Shown: positions 11,357-16,702 of the stretch, piece by piece
Layout: every line of letters starts with the position of its first letter
Position numbering within the stretch: the first letter of the stretch is position 1
Source of the DNA: Microbispora hainanensis
Lineage (GTDB): Bacteria > Actinomycetota > Actinomycetes > Streptosporangiales > Streptosporangiaceae
Assembly (NCBI RefSeq): GCF_036186745.1
Contig: NZ_CP108086.1
Coordinates: 3,100,001 to 3,164,000, forward strand
Length of the DNA stretch: 64,000 nt
Direction: 5' to 3'
Program-made: the position numbers and the translations under genes
Notes under the pieces: model-generated
What the model saw: only the letters and a program-made list of their open reading frames with translations
The model's database searches: none
Told to the model about the DNA's origin: nothing

Positions 11357-12979
11357 GTGAAAGGCGCCACCGGTTCGGCAGGCCCGCCACATGGGGCGGT
11401 CAGGCCGGCTCCCGACCTCCTGACGGCGCTGCTCGACGGCAGCGCCGAGGGCATCGTGCTGTGCGACGCTGACGGCGTCGTGACGCTGGTCAACGCGGCG
11501 GCGGTCCGCCTGATGCCCGGAGTCGAGCCGGGCCTGCCCGCGCCCGCGCCGCTCGGGCCCGTCCCGTCCGCCCCCGAAGGCCGGACCATGATCCACGGCG
11601 GCCGGGCGATCCGGATTCGCGCCGAAGCGGTCGGCGACGGCCGCCTCGCCTGGTATCTCTCCGATCTGGACGCGGCGCCGCGGACCGAGTTCCTGCTGGA
11701 GGCCGGCCGCCGCCTGTCCGCCTCGCTCAACCCGCACCGGTGCGCCAGGGCCGCGACGGAGCTGGCCGCCGACTTCCTGTGCGACATGGCGGTCGTGCTG
11801 CTGCCGTCCACCGCCCGCCGCCGGATGGAGTGGGTGCGCGCCGTCTCCGGCCGGCCCGGCGCGGAGGAGGGCACTCTGCCGGCCGCCGAGGCGGCGGAGG
11901 TGCCCGGCCTGACCGACGCGCTCGCGGGCCTGCGGCACGGTGGCACAGGGCTGCATGTCCCAAGAGACACAGGGCTGCAGGATCCGGGCGGCGCGCCGGA
12001 GTGGCTGCTGCCGGAGGGGTTCGGGCCCCTGGGCCACCTGCTGGTGCTCCCGCTGCCCGGCAACGGCGTGCCCGCCGGGGCGATCGTGCTCGCCCGCCGT
12101 GCTGGGCGGCCGCCGTTCTGCGACGACGACCAGAGGATGGCGCGCGACCTCGCGATCCGGGCCGGTGCCGCGATCTCCGCGGCCTCCCTGTTCCGGGAGC
12201 AGAGCACGATCAACGCCATCCTGACCGGTGATCTGCTGCCGCCGGACCTGCCGGAGATCGAGGGCATGCGGGTGGCGGGCCGGCTGCGGGCCTCGCAGCA
12301 GGCCGGCGCCATCGGCGGCGACTTCTACGACGTCTACCTGCCCGACGCGGCTACCGGCGACGGGATCGTGGAGCGGCCGCCGCTGGTCATCCTGGGCGAC
12401 GTCTGCGGCAAGGGCGCCCGCGCGGCGGTCCTGGCCGGTCAGGTCCGCCACAGCCTGCGCACGCTGCTGCTGCTGGAAAGCCGCACCGACCGGCTGCTCG
12501 AACTGCTGAACCGGTCGCTGCTCGCCTCCCCGTCGCCGCACTCGTACGTGACGATGATCCTGGCCGCGCTGCGCGCCGCACCCGGCGATCACGTGCTGGT
12601 GGACCTGGCTGTGGCCGGGCACCCGCCACCGCTGGTCCTGCGCCGGGACGGCACGGTGGAGGAGGTCGCCGCGCGGGGGTCCATCCTCGGCGCGTTGAAG
12701 CAGATCAGCCTGTGGCCCGTCACACTCGATCTCGCACCCGGCGAGGTGTGCCTGCTGTACAGCGACGGCATCACCGAGGCGTTCGGCGGCCCGAGCGGCC
12801 GGGAAATGTTCGGTGAGGAACGGCTGAAGGCGGCGCTCGCCACCTGCGCGGGAATGCCGGTCGAGGCCCTGGTGGAACGGCTGGAACAACTCAGCACGGA
12901 ATGGCTGGGCGGCGCTCCTGCCACCGGCTTGCAGGACGACCGCGCCCTGCTCGCCGTACGCGCGGGGAGACAGGGGTGA
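11357..12979 (+). CDS. PAS-GAF-SpoIIE (PP2C) serine phosphatase
   Basis: Multidomain signalling phosphatase, 540 aa. A PAS-like sensor is near residues 20-100 (SAEGIVLCDADGVVTLVNAA), a GAF-like domain near 115-280, and a C-terminal SpoIIE/PP2C domain near 300-538. The metal-binding residues are intact: AIGGDFYDVYL, LVILGDVCGKGARAA, LLYSDGITEAFGG and LQDDRALLAV, so it should be catalytically active. Its likely substrate is the phosphorylated STAS protein encoded two genes downstream. The GTG at 11357 overlaps the stop of a six-codon ATG frame (11340-11360), a possible coupled leader peptide. It heads a compact cassette with a B12-binding protein. Confidence 0.9.
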   Translation: MKGATGSAGPPHGAVRPAPDLLTALLDGSAEGIVLCDADGVVTLVNAAAVRLMPGVEPGLPAPAPLGPVPSAPEGRTMIHGGRAIRIRAEAVGDGRLAWYLSDLDAAPRTEFLLEAGRRLSASLNPHRCARAATELAADFLCDMAVVLLPSTARRRMEWVRAVSGRPGAEEGTLPAAEAAEVPGLTDALAGLRHGGTGLHVPRDTGLQDPGGAPEWLLPEGFGPLGHLLVLPLPGNGVPAGAIVLARRAGRPPFCDDDQRMARDLAIRAGAAISAASLFREQSTINAILTGDLLPPDLPEIEGMRVAGRLRASQQAGAIGGDFYDVYLPDAATGDGIVERPPLVILGDVCGKGARAAVLAGQVRHSLRTLLLLESRTDRLLELLNRSLLASPSPHSYVTMILAALRAAPGDHVLVDLAVAGHPPPLVLRRDGTVEEVAARGSILGALKQISLWPVTLDLAPGEVCLLYSDGITEAFGGPSGREMFGEERLKAALATCAGMPVEALVERLEQLSTEWLGGAPATGLQDDRALLAVRAGRQG

Positions 12980-12995
12980 CGGCAGGGGTGACGAC

Positions 12996-14003
12996 ATGGT
13001 GACGACGGACCTGGCGGCGGCGACGGAGCACTACCTGGACCTGATCGGCCGGGCCGACGAGTACGGCGCGGTCGACCTGGTCCTGGGCCTGATCGACGAG
13101 GGCGTGCCCGCCGAGGACGCGCTGCTGCGGGTCGTCGCCGCCGGCCAGCGCCGGGTGGGCGAGCTGTGGGCGTCGAACGAGTGGACGGTCGCGCGCGAGC
13201 ACGGCGCGACCGCGGTCAGCGAGCGCGTCGTGGCCGCCGTCAGCGGGCGCGTACGGCCCGCGGCGACCCGCGGCCGGGTGGCCGTGGCCTGCGCCGACGG
13301 CGAATATCACGCGCTGCCCGCCCGCATCATGGCGGAGGTGCTGCGTCTGCGGGGATGGCGGGTCGACTTCCTGGGGGCCAGCGTGCCCGGCCCGCACCTG
13401 ATCACCCACCTGCACCAGACCGGGCCCGACGTGGTCGCGCTCGGCTGCACACTGGCCACCCGGCTGCCCCGCGCGCACGCCACCATCTCGGCCTGCCAGG
13501 CCGTGGGCGTTCCCGTGCTGGCCGGTGGGGCGGGGTTCGGCGCCGACGGCCGCTACGCCCGCCTGCTCGGCGCGGACGCCTGGGCGCCCAGCGCCGACGC
13601 CGCGGCCGACCGGCTCGCCGCCGGGCTGCCGTCGTTTCCCGCCGCCCACGACGGCGCCGCCGCGGCCCGTCTCGGCGGCGAGGAGTACGCCTATCTGGCC
13701 CGGCACCGCGCCGAACTGCTGTCCCGCGTCATGGACAGGCTCGGGGACGACACCGGCGAGGATCTCGGTCACATCGCCGACTATCTGATCGCCGCGATGT
13801 ACGTCCACGACCCCGCGCTGTTCACCGGCTTCGTCACCTGGACCTGCCAGGTCCTGGCGGCCAGGAACGTGCCCGCGGAGTCCGTCGTGCGCGGGCTGCG
13901 TGCTCTCCATGATGTGCTGACGGACTGCCCCGACACCCGCCTGGTGCTGGACGAGGGCGTCGCCGCGGCATGTGCCGATCAACGAGCAGAGACGAGGGTC
14001 TGA
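12996..14003 (+). CDS. CarH-like cobalamin-binding sensor protein without DNA-binding domain
   Basis: Protein of 335 aa with the B12-binding modules of CarH/MetH: a four-helix cap (about residues 10-80) and a Rossmann B12 domain (about 93-200). The cap has W58, nine residues, then E68-H69, the W-x9-EH pattern of CarH-type AdoCbl photoreceptors, but Ala59 replaces the His that ligates cobalt in CarH's light state. The lower-ligand loop reads E103-Y-H105-A-L-P108 instead of D-x-H-x-x-G, keeping the histidine. A helical region of about 100 residues follows. No MerR HTH. It lies 16 bp after the phosphatase gene and overlaps the STAS gene by one base, so it may sense light or cobalamin state for that pathway. 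Confidence 0.82.
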   Translation: MVTTDLAAATEHYLDLIGRADEYGAVDLVLGLIDEGVPAEDALLRVVAAGQRRVGELWASNEWTVAREHGATAVSERVVAAVSGRVRPAATRGRVAVACADGEYHALPARIMAEVLRLRGWRVDFLGASVPGPHLITHLHQTGPDVVALGCTLATRLPRAHATISACQAVGVPVLAGGAGFGADGRYARLLGADAWAPSADAAADRLAAGLPSFPAAHDGAAAARLGGEEYAYLARHRAELLSRVMDRLGDDTGEDLGHIADYLIAAMYVHDPALFTGFVTWTCQVLAARNVPAESVVRGLRALHDVLTDCPDTRLVLDEGVAAACADQRAETRV

Positions 14004-14329
14004 TGCAGGACACGCCCGCGTTCCGGGTCGAGTCGCTCACTCCCGAGCCCGGCACGGCGCGCCTGGTGATGACCGGCGAGCTCGACTTCACCACGGCGGA
14101 CGAGGCGTCCGCAGAGGTGGCCAAGGCGCTCGCGGAGGGCGTCGGCGTGCTCGAACTCGACCTGGCGGGGCTGAAGTTCATCGACTCGTCGGGCATGGCG
14201 GTGGTGATGGACGCCTACACCGGCGCGCAGGAGCGCGGGACGGCCTTCCGGATCGTCGCCCTCACCCCCTATCTGCGCCACCTGATCGAGGTCGTCGCCC
14301 TCGACGACGTGCTCGACCTGCCCGCCTGA
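14003..14329 (+). CDS. STAS-domain anti-anti-sigma factor
   Basis: Single STAS domain, 108 aa, the SpoIIAA/RsbV type. Core motifs are ARLVMTGELDFTTADEA, then LELDLAGLKFIDSSGMAVVM, where the Ser in DSSG is the phosphorylation site. In partner switching the dephosphorylated form captures an anti-sigma kinase and frees a sigma factor. The ATG at 14003 shares its A with the upstream TGA (TGATG), so it is translationally coupled to the B12-binding gene. No anti-sigma kinase gene is next to it. Confidence 0.9.
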   Translation: MQDTPAFRVESLTPEPGTARLVMTGELDFTTADEASAEVAKALAEGVGVLELDLAGLKFIDSSGMAVVMDAYTGAQERGTAFRIVALTPYLRHLIEVVALDDVLDLPA

Positions 14330-14353: not shown

Positions 14354-16702
14354 GTGAGCAGGCGTGCCGTCGCCGTCCGGATCGAGGGGATCGTGCAGGG
14401 GGTCGGCTTCCGGCCCTTCGTGTACGGCCTCGCCACGCGGCTCGGCCTCGCCGGGGTGGTCGGCAACGACGAACGCGGGGTCTTCATCGAGGTCGAGGGC
14501 GGCAGCGCGCCGGTCGAGGAGTTCCTGGCCGCGCTGACCGGCGACCCGCCGCCGCTGGCGGTCATCGAGCGGATCAGCACGGCCCCGGCGCCCGTCACCG
14601 GCCGCGGCACATTCGTGATCGCGCCGAGCGCGGCCGGTGGGGACCGGCACGCGCTCGTCTCGCCGGACGTGGCGACCTGCGACGCCTGCGTGCGCGACCT
14701 GAGCGACCCGGCCGACCGCAGGTGCGGCTACGCCTTCACCAACTGCACCGGCTGCGGCCCGCGCTTCACCATCGTCCGCGACGTGCCCTACGACCGGGCC
14801 ACCACCACGATGGCGGGCTTCCGGATGTGCGCGGACTGCGCCCGCGAATATCACGACCCCGGCGACCGGCGCTTCCACGCCCAGCCCGTGTGCTGCCCCG
14901 CCTGCGGCCCCCTGCTGCGGTTCGTGGGTCCCGAGGGACCCGGTGATCCGCTCGCGCGGGCAGTACGGCTGCTGCGGGAGGGCGGCGTGCTGGCGGTCAA
15001 GGGACTCGGCGGCTATCATCTGGCGGCGCTCGCGGCGGACGAACCCGCCGTGGCCGCGCTGCGGTCGCGCAAGCACCGCGAGGACAAGCCGTTCGCGGTG
15101 ATGACCGGCGACCTGGCCGCGGCGCGGCGGCTGTGCGTGGTGGACCCGGCCGAGGAGCGCCTGCTGACCGGCCCCGCCCGCCCCGTCGTGCTGCTGCGGC
15201 GGCTCGATGACTTACTCGTGGCGCCGTCCGTGGCACCCGGCAACCGGTGGCTGGGGGTGCTGCTGCCGTACACCCCGCTGCACCACCTGCTGCTCCGGGG
15301 GGTTGGTGAGCCGATCGTGCTGACCAGCGGAAACGTGTCCGACGAGCCGATCGCCTACCGGGACGACGACGTCCTGGAACGGCTCGGCGGCATCGCCGAC
15401 GCCTTCCTGACCCACGACCGCCCCATCCACATCCGTACGGACGACTCGGTCGTACGGGTCTTCCGGGGCCGTGACCTGCCGATCAGGCGGTCGCGGGGAT
15501 ACGTGCCCCACCCGCTGCCGCTCGCCGTCGCGGCGGCCCGGCCCGTGCTCGCCTGCGGCGCCGAGCTGAAGCACACGTTCTGCCTGGTCAAGGGTGACCG
15601 CGCGTTCGTCTCCCACCACATCGGCGACCTGGAGAACTACGAGACCCTGCGGTCGTTCACCGAGGGAGTCGAGCATTTCCGGCGGCTGTTCGACATCACG
15701 CCCGAGATCGTCGCGCACGACCTGCACCCCGACTATCTGTCCACCAAGTGGGCGCTCGACCAGGACGCGGACCTCGTCGGCGTGCAGCACCACCACGCCC
15801 ACATCGCGTCCTGCCTGGCCGACAACGGCGTCGATTGCACGGTCGCGGGCCCGGTCGCGGGAGTGGCCTTCGACGGCCTCGGCTACGGCGCGGACGGCAC
15901 GCTGTGGGGCGGCGAGTTCCTCGTCGCCGACCTGACCGGCTTCGAACGGGCGGGCCACCTCGCGCCGGTGCCGATGCCCGGGGGCGTGACCGCGATCCGG
16001 CAGCCCTGGCGCATGGCCGCCGTCTATCTCGACCTCGCCTACGACGGCGACGTCCCCGAAGACCTGGACGTCGTACGGCGCAACGCCGGGCAGTGGGCGG
16101 CCGTCGTCGCGCTGGCCCGCCGGGGCGTCAACTCGCCTCTCACCTCCAGCATGGGCCGCCTGTTCGACGCGGTGGCGGCGGTCGCGGGGGTCCGCGACGC
16201 GATCACCTACGAGGGCCAGGCCGCGGTCGAGTTCGAGCAGCTCGCCGATCCCGGGGTGGACGACGCCTACCCCTGCCGCCTCGTCGAGACGGGAGCGGGG
16301 TTCACCGTGCCGGGCGCGGAGCTGGTCCGCGCGGTCGCCGACGATCTGCGGGCGGGCGTGCCCCGCGACGTCGTCGCCGCGCGGTTCCACAACGCCGTGG
16401 CCCGCGTCGTCGCCGACGGCTGCGCGCTGATCAGGACGGCCTGCGGCCTGTCCACGGTCGCGCTGTCCGGCGGGGTGTTCCAGAACCTGCTGCTGCTCGG
16501 CCGGGCCGTGACCCTGCTGGAGGAGCGCGGCTTCACGGTGCTCACCCACCACCGCGTCCCCCCGAACGACGGCGGCGTCAGCCTCGGTCAGGCCGCCGTC
16601 GCCGCCGCGATGGCGGCGAACTCGCCGATCAGCGGGGTGCGGCGGGAGCTGTCCCAGGCCAGGCACACCTGGTTGGGCGGGATGTCGGCGACCGGCACGT
16701 AG
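14354..16702 (+). CDS. hypF: HypF carbamoyltransferase for [NiFe]-hydrogenase maturation
   Basis: Carbamoyltransferase that starts cyanide-ligand synthesis by moving a carbamoyl group from carbamoyl phosphate to the C-terminal Cys of HypE; 782 aa. Domains: acylphosphatase (GIVQGVGFRPFVYGL, residues 12-26), two HypF zinc fingers (CDACVRDL to CTGCGP, and CADCAREY to CCPACGP), YrdC-like nucleotide domain (about 190-370), and the Kae1/HypF C-terminal domain with QHHHAHIASCLADNG and LSGGVFQNLLL. The last 28 residues run over the 3' end of the opposing LysR gene and are probably an unselected tail. It lies 24 bp after the STAS gene, apart from the main hyp operon at 18311. Confidence 0.94.
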   Translation: MSRRAVAVRIEGIVQGVGFRPFVYGLATRLGLAGVVGNDERGVFIEVEGGSAPVEEFLAALTGDPPPLAVIERISTAPAPVTGRGTFVIAPSAAGGDRHALVSPDVATCDACVRDLSDPADRRCGYAFTNCTGCGPRFTIVRDVPYDRATTTMAGFRMCADCAREYHDPGDRRFHAQPVCCPACGPLLRFVGPEGPGDPLARAVRLLREGGVLAVKGLGGYHLAALAADEPAVAALRSRKHREDKPFAVMTGDLAAARRLCVVDPAEERLLTGPARPVVLLRRLDDLLVAPSVAPGNRWLGVLLPYTPLHHLLLRGVGEPIVLTSGNVSDEPIAYRDDDVLERLGGIADAFLTHDRPIHIRTDDSVVRVFRGRDLPIRRSRGYVPHPLPLAVAAARPVLACGAELKHTFCLVKGDRAFVSHHIGDLENYETLRSFTEGVEHFRRLFDITPEIVAHDLHPDYLSTKWALDQDADLVGVQHHHAHIASCLADNGVDCTVAGPVAGVAFDGLGYGADGTLWGGEFLVADLTGFERAGHLAPVPMPGGVTAIRQPWRMAAVYLDLAYDGDVPEDLDVVRRNAGQWAAVVALARRGVNSPLTSSMGRLFDAVAAVAGVRDAITYEGQAAVEFEQLADPGVDDAYPCRLVETGAGFTVPGAELVRAVADDLRAGVPRDVVAARFHNAVARVVADGCALIRTACGLSTVALSGGVFQNLLLLGRAVTLLEERGFTVLTHHRVPPNDGGVSLGQAAVAAAMAANSPISGVRRELSQARHTWLGGMSATGT

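Follow-up and report, generated by a model that had tools for sequence, protein, structure and literature searches.

The closest described relatives of the B12 protein studied here are the photocobilins SasPcob and AbDPcob, the latter a photocobilin-diguanylate cyclase fusion. According to the parts of the report by Zhang et al. 2024 (PMC10979010) drawn on here, SasPcob with bound adenosylcobalamin (AdoCbl) is a head-to-tail dimer in the dark and a monomer in the light, and the cyclase of AbDPcob turned over more than tenfold faster in the light. Separate photocobilins also acted in trans on the isolated cyclase, which was activated by light-state AbPcob and by SasPcob loaded with biliverdin (BV). 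When SasPcob contained no BV, the cyclase was activated in the dark and seemingly inhibited in the light. One sentence of the report, based on a STRING analysis, names STAS, SpoIIE and PP2C-like phosphatases as potential interaction partners of SasPcob, and a SpoIIE/STAS link of a standalone photocobilin is in this form already in print as a suggestion. Here we describe such a locus in Microbispora hainanensis, located in a 64,000-nt stretch of contig NZ_CP108086.1 (positions 3,100,001 to 3,164,000), which is called the window throughout. Three plus-strand open reading frames (ORFs) encode a SpoIIE phosphatase, a B12 protein and a STAS protein, and they probably form a split, light-gated PPM phosphatase in which the photocobilin controls the SpoIIE protein acting on STAS.

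The output side resembles described phosphatases. In the excerpts of PMC12143880 used here, RsbT activates RsbU by way of a coiled-coil linker, which makes the phosphatase dimerise, and the authors suggest that this linker logic also holds for other phosphatases, cyclases and histidine kinases. The three ORFs are:

11357-12979, plus strand: SpoIIE phosphatase, 540 aa, GTG start
12996-14003, plus strand: B12 protein (photocobilin), 335 aa
14003-14329, plus strand: STAS anti-sigma-factor antagonist, 108 aa, presumed phospho-Ser62 codon at 14186-14188, in DSSG

The original prediction had described three tightly coupled genes, and the ORF calls bore out the positions, the 16 bp between the phosphatase and the B12 gene, and the TGATG that joins the B12 and STAS genes with an overlap of one base.

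The B12 protein is a photocobilin

The B12 protein was matched by the Pfam models B12-binding (1.4e-15) and B12-binding_2 (6.5e-13), and no NCBIfam model named it above its cut-off. In a phmmer search against solved structures, SasPcob from Saccharothrix syringae (8j2x/8j2w) was found at about 1e-87 over residues 6-327, followed by an Acidimicrobiaceae photocobilin (8j2y, 4e-43). Weaker matches covered the B12 part alone and included the corrinoid protein 1y80 (2e-12), the light-responsive MerR protein 8jbs (1.5e-11) and CarH (2e-5 and weaker). The AlphaFold model of the protein, with a predicted local distance difference test (pLDDT) score of 94.8, superposed over the full length on 8j2w/8j2x with a template modelling (TM) score of 0.85-0.87 and 51% identity. 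Residues about 229-334 correspond to a bilin-type globin of five helices, joined C-terminally to the B12 domain; in SasPcob this globin holds the BV. The following domains were assigned:

about 13026-13250, plus strand: four-helix bundle of the photocobilin (model, structure match)
about 13272-13610, plus strand: Rossmann B12 domain (Pfam, model)
about 13680-13997, plus strand: C-terminal bilin-type globin (structure match, model)

No helix-turn-helix was found with Pfam up to E 1, and the chain begins with a helical bundle and has no MerR-type DNA-binding domain. The protein had first been taken for a CarH-like B12 protein without a DNA-binding domain. The B12 photosensor core and the missing DNA-binding domain proved correct, but the second domain had been overlooked, and the globin, seen in the structure matches and in the model, rules out a bare CarH-like protein.

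The chromophore residues were then compared in an alignment of 72 sequences, made up of the window protein and the photocobilins of 69 named loci, two of which contributed a further, tandem copy. The alignment omits L070, whose gene is divided between two frames, L071, which has no globin match, and L072, a copy of the window. The key residues of the window protein are W58, E68, H69, H105, H134, D256 and W282, where W58, E68-H69 and H105 are present as originally noted, and D256 and W282 correspond to Asp270 and Trp296 of the BV site of SasPcob. Equivalents of SasPcob W61, E71, H72, H108, D270 and W296 were invariant (72/72), and that of H137, which is H134 in the window protein, was kept in 71/72. 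CarH forms a bis-His light state with its His132. Because Ala59 follows W58 at this position in the window protein, its residues make a CarH-like bis-His state unlikely. For SasPcob, the parts of PMC10979010 at hand give Gln at this position and no bis-His state. The light-response signature described in excerpts of PMC11796333 (GxxW, EH, GxxH, GxxxP) is complete in the window protein, with G55-W58, E68-H69, G102-H105 and G127-P131. The full-length sequence, the predicted fold and the invariant chromophore residues show that the B12 protein is a full-length member of the photocobilin family.

The putative SpoIIE partner and its gene order

The upstream ORF had been called a PAS-GAF-SpoIIE phosphatase, which agrees with its Pfam matches and its fold model. 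SpoIIE was matched at 3.5e-37, and GAF (3e-4) and PAS_8 (0.0013) both scored slightly below their cut-offs. In the model (pLDDT 86.1, predicted TM score 0.58), a PAS-like unit of small size and a GAF-like unit are followed by a helix (residues 256-292) that runs into the phosphatase domain:

about 11411-11671, plus strand: PAS-like unit (Pfam PAS_8 0.0013, structure model)
about 11741-12175, plus strand: GAF unit (Pfam GAF 3e-4, structure model)
about 12122-12232, plus strand: long linker helix (model helix, residues 256-292)
about 12254-12964, plus strand: phosphatase (PPM) domain (Pfam SpoIIE, fold matches, motifs)

The top fold matches were the phosphatase domains of RsbU-type Rv1364c, SiaA, RssB and SpoIIE, with the PAS-GAF parts of phytochromes ranking lower. 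The PPM aspartate motifs are present in the stretches GGDFYD, GDVCGKG, YSDGITE and QDDRA. The first of them reads GGDFYD in 82 of 96 related SpoIIE matches and is altered at the last position in 9.

The gene order was followed in a contig scan of named genomes, which gave 71 loci; L071 was dropped, a Hymenobacter B12 protein matching over residues 12-203 alone. A SpoIIE gene lay next upstream on the same strand in 70/70 photocobilin loci, with 0-350 bases between the domain matches. When the same 878 kb were searched by phmmer with the phosphatase domain of the window, one further, weak SpoIIE match was obtained, a search that remoter paralogues could escape. Because there are only 21 SpoIIE matches in the 8.8 Mb of the source genome, adjacency by chance should be well under 1% per locus. 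The pair is present in many named, culturable actinomycetes. In some Microbispora, two photocobilins stand in tandem between SpoIIE and STAS (L007 6001-8494, L019 6001-8517, L124 of G534 and L125 of G460).

In a phylum sample of 396 genomes, photocobilins were detected at E <= 1e-25 in 28 genomes with 34 matched genes. Within the class of the window, SpoIIE was upstream in 21/21 and STAS downstream in 15/21. In the other classes, a GGDEF gene was located within about 300 bases upstream in 4/13. A class sample of 393 genomes had matches in 66, on 74 stretches with 73 genes, since one (G783) lies in two pieces; these were tallied by hand. SpoIIE was found upstream of 63/73 genes, 61 of them adjacent and 2 being second tandem copies with the first copy in between, and this count includes a partial match (G440) that spans residues 11-128 alone. 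One gene at a contig end was not assignable. For genes with E <= 1e-43, SpoIIE was upstream in 53/53. A STAS match followed in 39/73 genes of the class sample and in 23/70 named loci. The sets are not independent: the class sample repeats 18 class-mate genomes of the phylum sample and may also repeat species from the named set.

Among the nine genes of the class sample without SpoIIE, GGDEF was next upstream in L158 and L159, 831 bases upstream in L166 and downstream in L167. A GGDEF gene directly upstream of the photocobilin, with SpoIIE absent, was seen in L102, L104, L105, L106, L158 and L159 and resembles a split AbDPcob fusion. Some genes were unusual in structure. L169 2577-2963 (G440) has the front part of a photocobilin alone (query residues 11-128) between SpoIIE and STAS, either a truncated gene or a shortened match, and in L154 2505-3516 (G783) the gene occupies two overlapping frames, by frameshift or sequencing error. 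In L160 294-3512, L167 2460-4535 and L170 2003-3535 the photocobilin forms the C-terminal part of long frames (511-1073 aa), whose remaining part had no Pfam match at 1e-4.

SpoIIE and photocobilin are thus a unit conserved in the class, and STAS is optional. A conserved co-occurrence of all three genes had been expected; it was observed for the SpoIIE-photocobilin pair and did not extend to STAS, and the three-gene order was rejected as the conserved unit.

Trees of both proteins were built from 44 pairs, picked for spread out of about 90, with one unrelated SpoIIE paralogue added. Compared by eye, their main groups were alike. Three genomes have two pairs (G038, G327 and G375), and each SpoIIE was placed with its own sensor and not with its genome-mate, the placement of L100 (G327) being less sure because it is a long branch in both trees. 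The photocobilin gene is thus shown to go with a single lineage of PAS-GAF-SpoIIE phosphatases. The proposed coupling of a B12 sensor to a SpoIIE/STAS pair is therefore well supported for the sensor and SpoIIE by gene order and similar trees, and only the link to STAS turned out to be optional.

The STAS protein was matched by STAS_2 (2.2e-16) and by TIGR00377 (4e-14), the latter with 52.4 bits slightly below the cut-off of 53.45. Ser62 is presumably the phosphosite, as in SpoIIAA/RsbV, and its equivalent was kept in 37/37 adjacent STAS relatives examined. Four neighbours in the window were scanned and encode a ROK protein, HypF, a LysR regulator and an SDR. The hypF gene (hydrogenase maturation carbamoyltransferase, window 14354-16702) begins about 25 bp past the STAS gene and possibly is co-transcribed with the operon. 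It was downstream of the operon in 7/9 named Microbispora loci (L001-L005, L008, L019), and in L003 it follows without a STAS match in between.

The bilin site in Microbispora

The globin of the window protein differs from that of SasPcob in one loop:

about 13740-13750, plus strand: gap of 14 residues between globin helices A and B, compared with SasPcob; conserved Tyr removed (alignment)

M. hainanensis L002, beside which the window protein is placed, has the same 14-residue gap, as does M. rosea L005, whereas 11 residues are gone in M. bryophytorum L006 and the globin of Microbispora sp. L008 is shortened nearby. The loop tyrosine, Tyr259 in SasPcob, was kept in 67/72 sequences, the exceptions being the window protein and these four; it is gone in the window protein and three of the relatives and replaced by His in the fourth. 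Conservation of this loop is a result of our alignment and not a published photocobilin criterion. By hand alignment, Tyr259 takes the place of Leu252 in AbPcob, which is a modelled BV contact in the sections of PMC10979010 consulted.

The supply of bilin was assessed by the heme oxygenase family PF01126. Neither the source genome nor any of the 10 genomes sampled from the genus had a match, although the sensor is present in 9 of these 10. Among the other genera in the family sample, PF01126 was present in 38/49 sensor genomes versus 61/141 without the sensor (Fisher p 3e-5, uncorrected for kinship). The corresponding numbers in the phylum sample were 12/28 photocobilin genomes (two weakly) and 29/368 others. 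With 12/28 there and 0/10 in its own genus, heme oxygenase is not supported as a strict companion of the sensor. As a further sign of bilin supply, a PHY-domain bacteriophytochrome was searched for in the source genome and none was found. A DUF2470 protein (L120 1480-2202, minus strand) had weak matches (E about 1e-4) to the HugZ/HOZ-like heme proteins MSMEG_6519 and PtHOZ1, and its sequence makes a non-canonical heme oxygenase possible.

These data bear on a variant of the light-gated phosphatase that applies to the window, in which the bilin arm has been lost or weakened and green light is sensed through B12 alone, perhaps with a dark-on output. We give this variant only slightly less than an even chance. 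The loop gap at the modelled BV contact and the missing PF01126 in all sampled genomes of the genus, compared with its frequency in the sensor genomes of other genera, argue for it, as does the reversed cyclase effect of SasPcob without BV in the excerpts of PMC10979010. It is opposed by the retention of D256 and W282 and by the intact loop in 5/9 named Microbispora loci. A bilin could also be made by the DUF2470 protein or come from outside, 11/49 sensor genomes elsewhere in the family have no PF01126 either, and the Fisher tests ignore kinship.

Proposed switch, alternatives and related systems

In the dark, AdoCbl would keep the sensor as a head-to-tail dimer, as in SasPcob. Green light, and red light also where BV is bound, would break the Co-C bond and the dimer would dissociate. 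One of the two forms would bind in trans to the SpoIIE protein, at its PAS-GAF-linker region, in the way RsbT and RsbQ act on RsbU and RsbP, and set the dimerisation and activity of the phosphatase. The phosphatase would dephosphorylate Ser62 of the STAS protein, which would then capture an anti-sigma kinase encoded elsewhere. The activating form could be the light or the dark one, as SasPcob is light-on towards the cyclase with BV and dark-on without it. We infer the contact between sensor and SpoIIE, the direction of the light effect, the sigma factor and the term 'general stress'; that the pairing of sensor and phosphatase yields a light-controlled switch is likely from the sequences.

Several points weigh against this scheme. 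No measurements of binding, photochemistry or phosphatase activity were found for these proteins, PAS and GAF units give the SpoIIE protein inputs of its own, and conserved neighbours may share regulation without contact. No STAS match followed the pair in 47/70 named loci, including L028 and L038, where the sequence stops no more than about 140 bases from the photocobilin and STAS cannot be judged; an adjacent STAS protein can therefore not be the general target. SpoIIE was upstream in 0/13 photocobilins of the other classes in the phylum sample, none was found upstream of 9/73 genes in the class sample, and the genomes are related, so that the counts are not independent. No HATPase anti-sigma kinase gene adjoins the operon, the nearest PF13581 match being near window 30550. 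There is also no adjoining sigma gene in the window, and no search aimed at the target sigma factor was made. With no kinase or sigma gene next to the operon, the 'general stress switch' of the original prediction is a guess. The source genome has 76 PF13581 matches, 44 above the cut-off, and the weaker ones are probably histidine kinases. In Streptomyces albidoflavus (L061, 7100-8946) the partner switch is more complete, with a HATPase kinase-like gene as well as two STAS genes downstream of the pair.

The sensor might instead report the supply of AdoCbl, that is the B12 status, with an incidental light sensitivity. A corrinoid adenosyltransferase is present in the source genome, which speaks for the light-gated scheme as well, and in the parts of PMC10979010 used here the binding of AdoCbl alone lowered the cyclase activity of AbDPcob compared with the apo form. 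We consider this unlikely, because the invariant W-x9-EH and the light signature match proteins with a measured light response (excerpts of PMC11796333) and the bilin-site residues, needless for a pure B12 sensor, are kept family-wide. Another reading, in which the two proteins are only co-encoded, have separate targets, and SpoIIE answers the signals of its own PAS and GAF units, is improbable: the pairing in 63/73 genes over several families, the similar trees, the cognate pairs in two-pair genomes and, where SpoIIE is absent, a nearby GGDEF gene as another dimerising output in some genomes argue against it. The presence of GAF and PAS units, if weakly scored, and the lack of interaction data are in its favour. 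A corrinoid methyl-carrier of a methyltransferase, suggested by the distant matches to 1y80 (2e-12) and to the MtgC, MtbC and MetH models, was rejected as virtually excluded by NCBIfam scores far below the curated cut-offs, the whole-chain photocobilin match at about 1e-87 with W, EH and globin present, and four scanned neighbours that are not methyltransferases.

The light-gated phosphatase can be extended to the class, tentatively and with rather less than even confidence. The photocobilin would be a dedicated trans-acting regulatory subunit of one SpoIIE lineage. Its role would match that of RsbT, with light as the driver, and it would clamp the coiled-coil linker or release it. The same sensor would serve GGDEF cyclases elsewhere, giving one light module with two dimerising outputs. 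The linker logic of RsbU fits a photocobilin with SpoIIE as its output in one lineage and GGDEF in other lineages. Within Microbispora, the bilin arm would be decaying towards a B12-only green-light switch, its sign flipped from light-on to dark-on, going by SasPcob without BV.

In the open-licence literature, no experimental work on a B12-based partner switch gated by light was listed, and among the papers listed for SpoIIE, STAS, partner switching and Microbispora nothing beyond the one-sentence suggestion turned up. As far as these searches show, the regularity of the class-wide pairing, the cognate trees and the optional STAS are new, and so is the loss in the bilin site of Microbispora with its possible sign flip. 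The pair in culturable actinomycetes offers a testable answer to the role of standalone photocobilins and to the way in which light may act on sigma factors. It is also a possible two-part tool for the light control of a phosphatase, and the Microbispora loop loss is a natural test of the purpose of the bilin.

The locus can be compared with RsbU-RsbT, RsbP-RsbQ and OsaC, which are alike in a PPM/SpoIIE phosphatase with sensor and linker, a possible partner protein in trans and STAS beside it. They differ in that the partner in the window would be a photoreceptor, and the kinase and the sigma factor are not assigned here. CarH and LitR have the AdoCbl photosensor core, W-x9-EH and the ligand His in common with the window protein, whereas they contain a MerR DNA-binding domain and His132 in place of Ala59 and have no extra globin. 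The pairing of globin and B12 domain is shared with the photoglobin family of Schneider et al. 2022, for which it was reportedly proposed as a light-sensing bundle. AbDPcob (PDB 8j2y) has a fused output with a GGDEF domain and about 35% identity to the window sensor; it shares the sensor module and demonstrates that light can control an output enzyme, and its BV binding is weak too in the parts of its description used here. SasPcob (PDB 8j2w/8j2x) differs by the 14 globin-loop residues including Tyr259, which are missing in the window protein, and by the lack of a PF01126 match in the source genome, and it is like the window protein in the full-length fold, the 51% identity and the key residues for AdoCbl and BV named in the sections of PMC10979010 considered.

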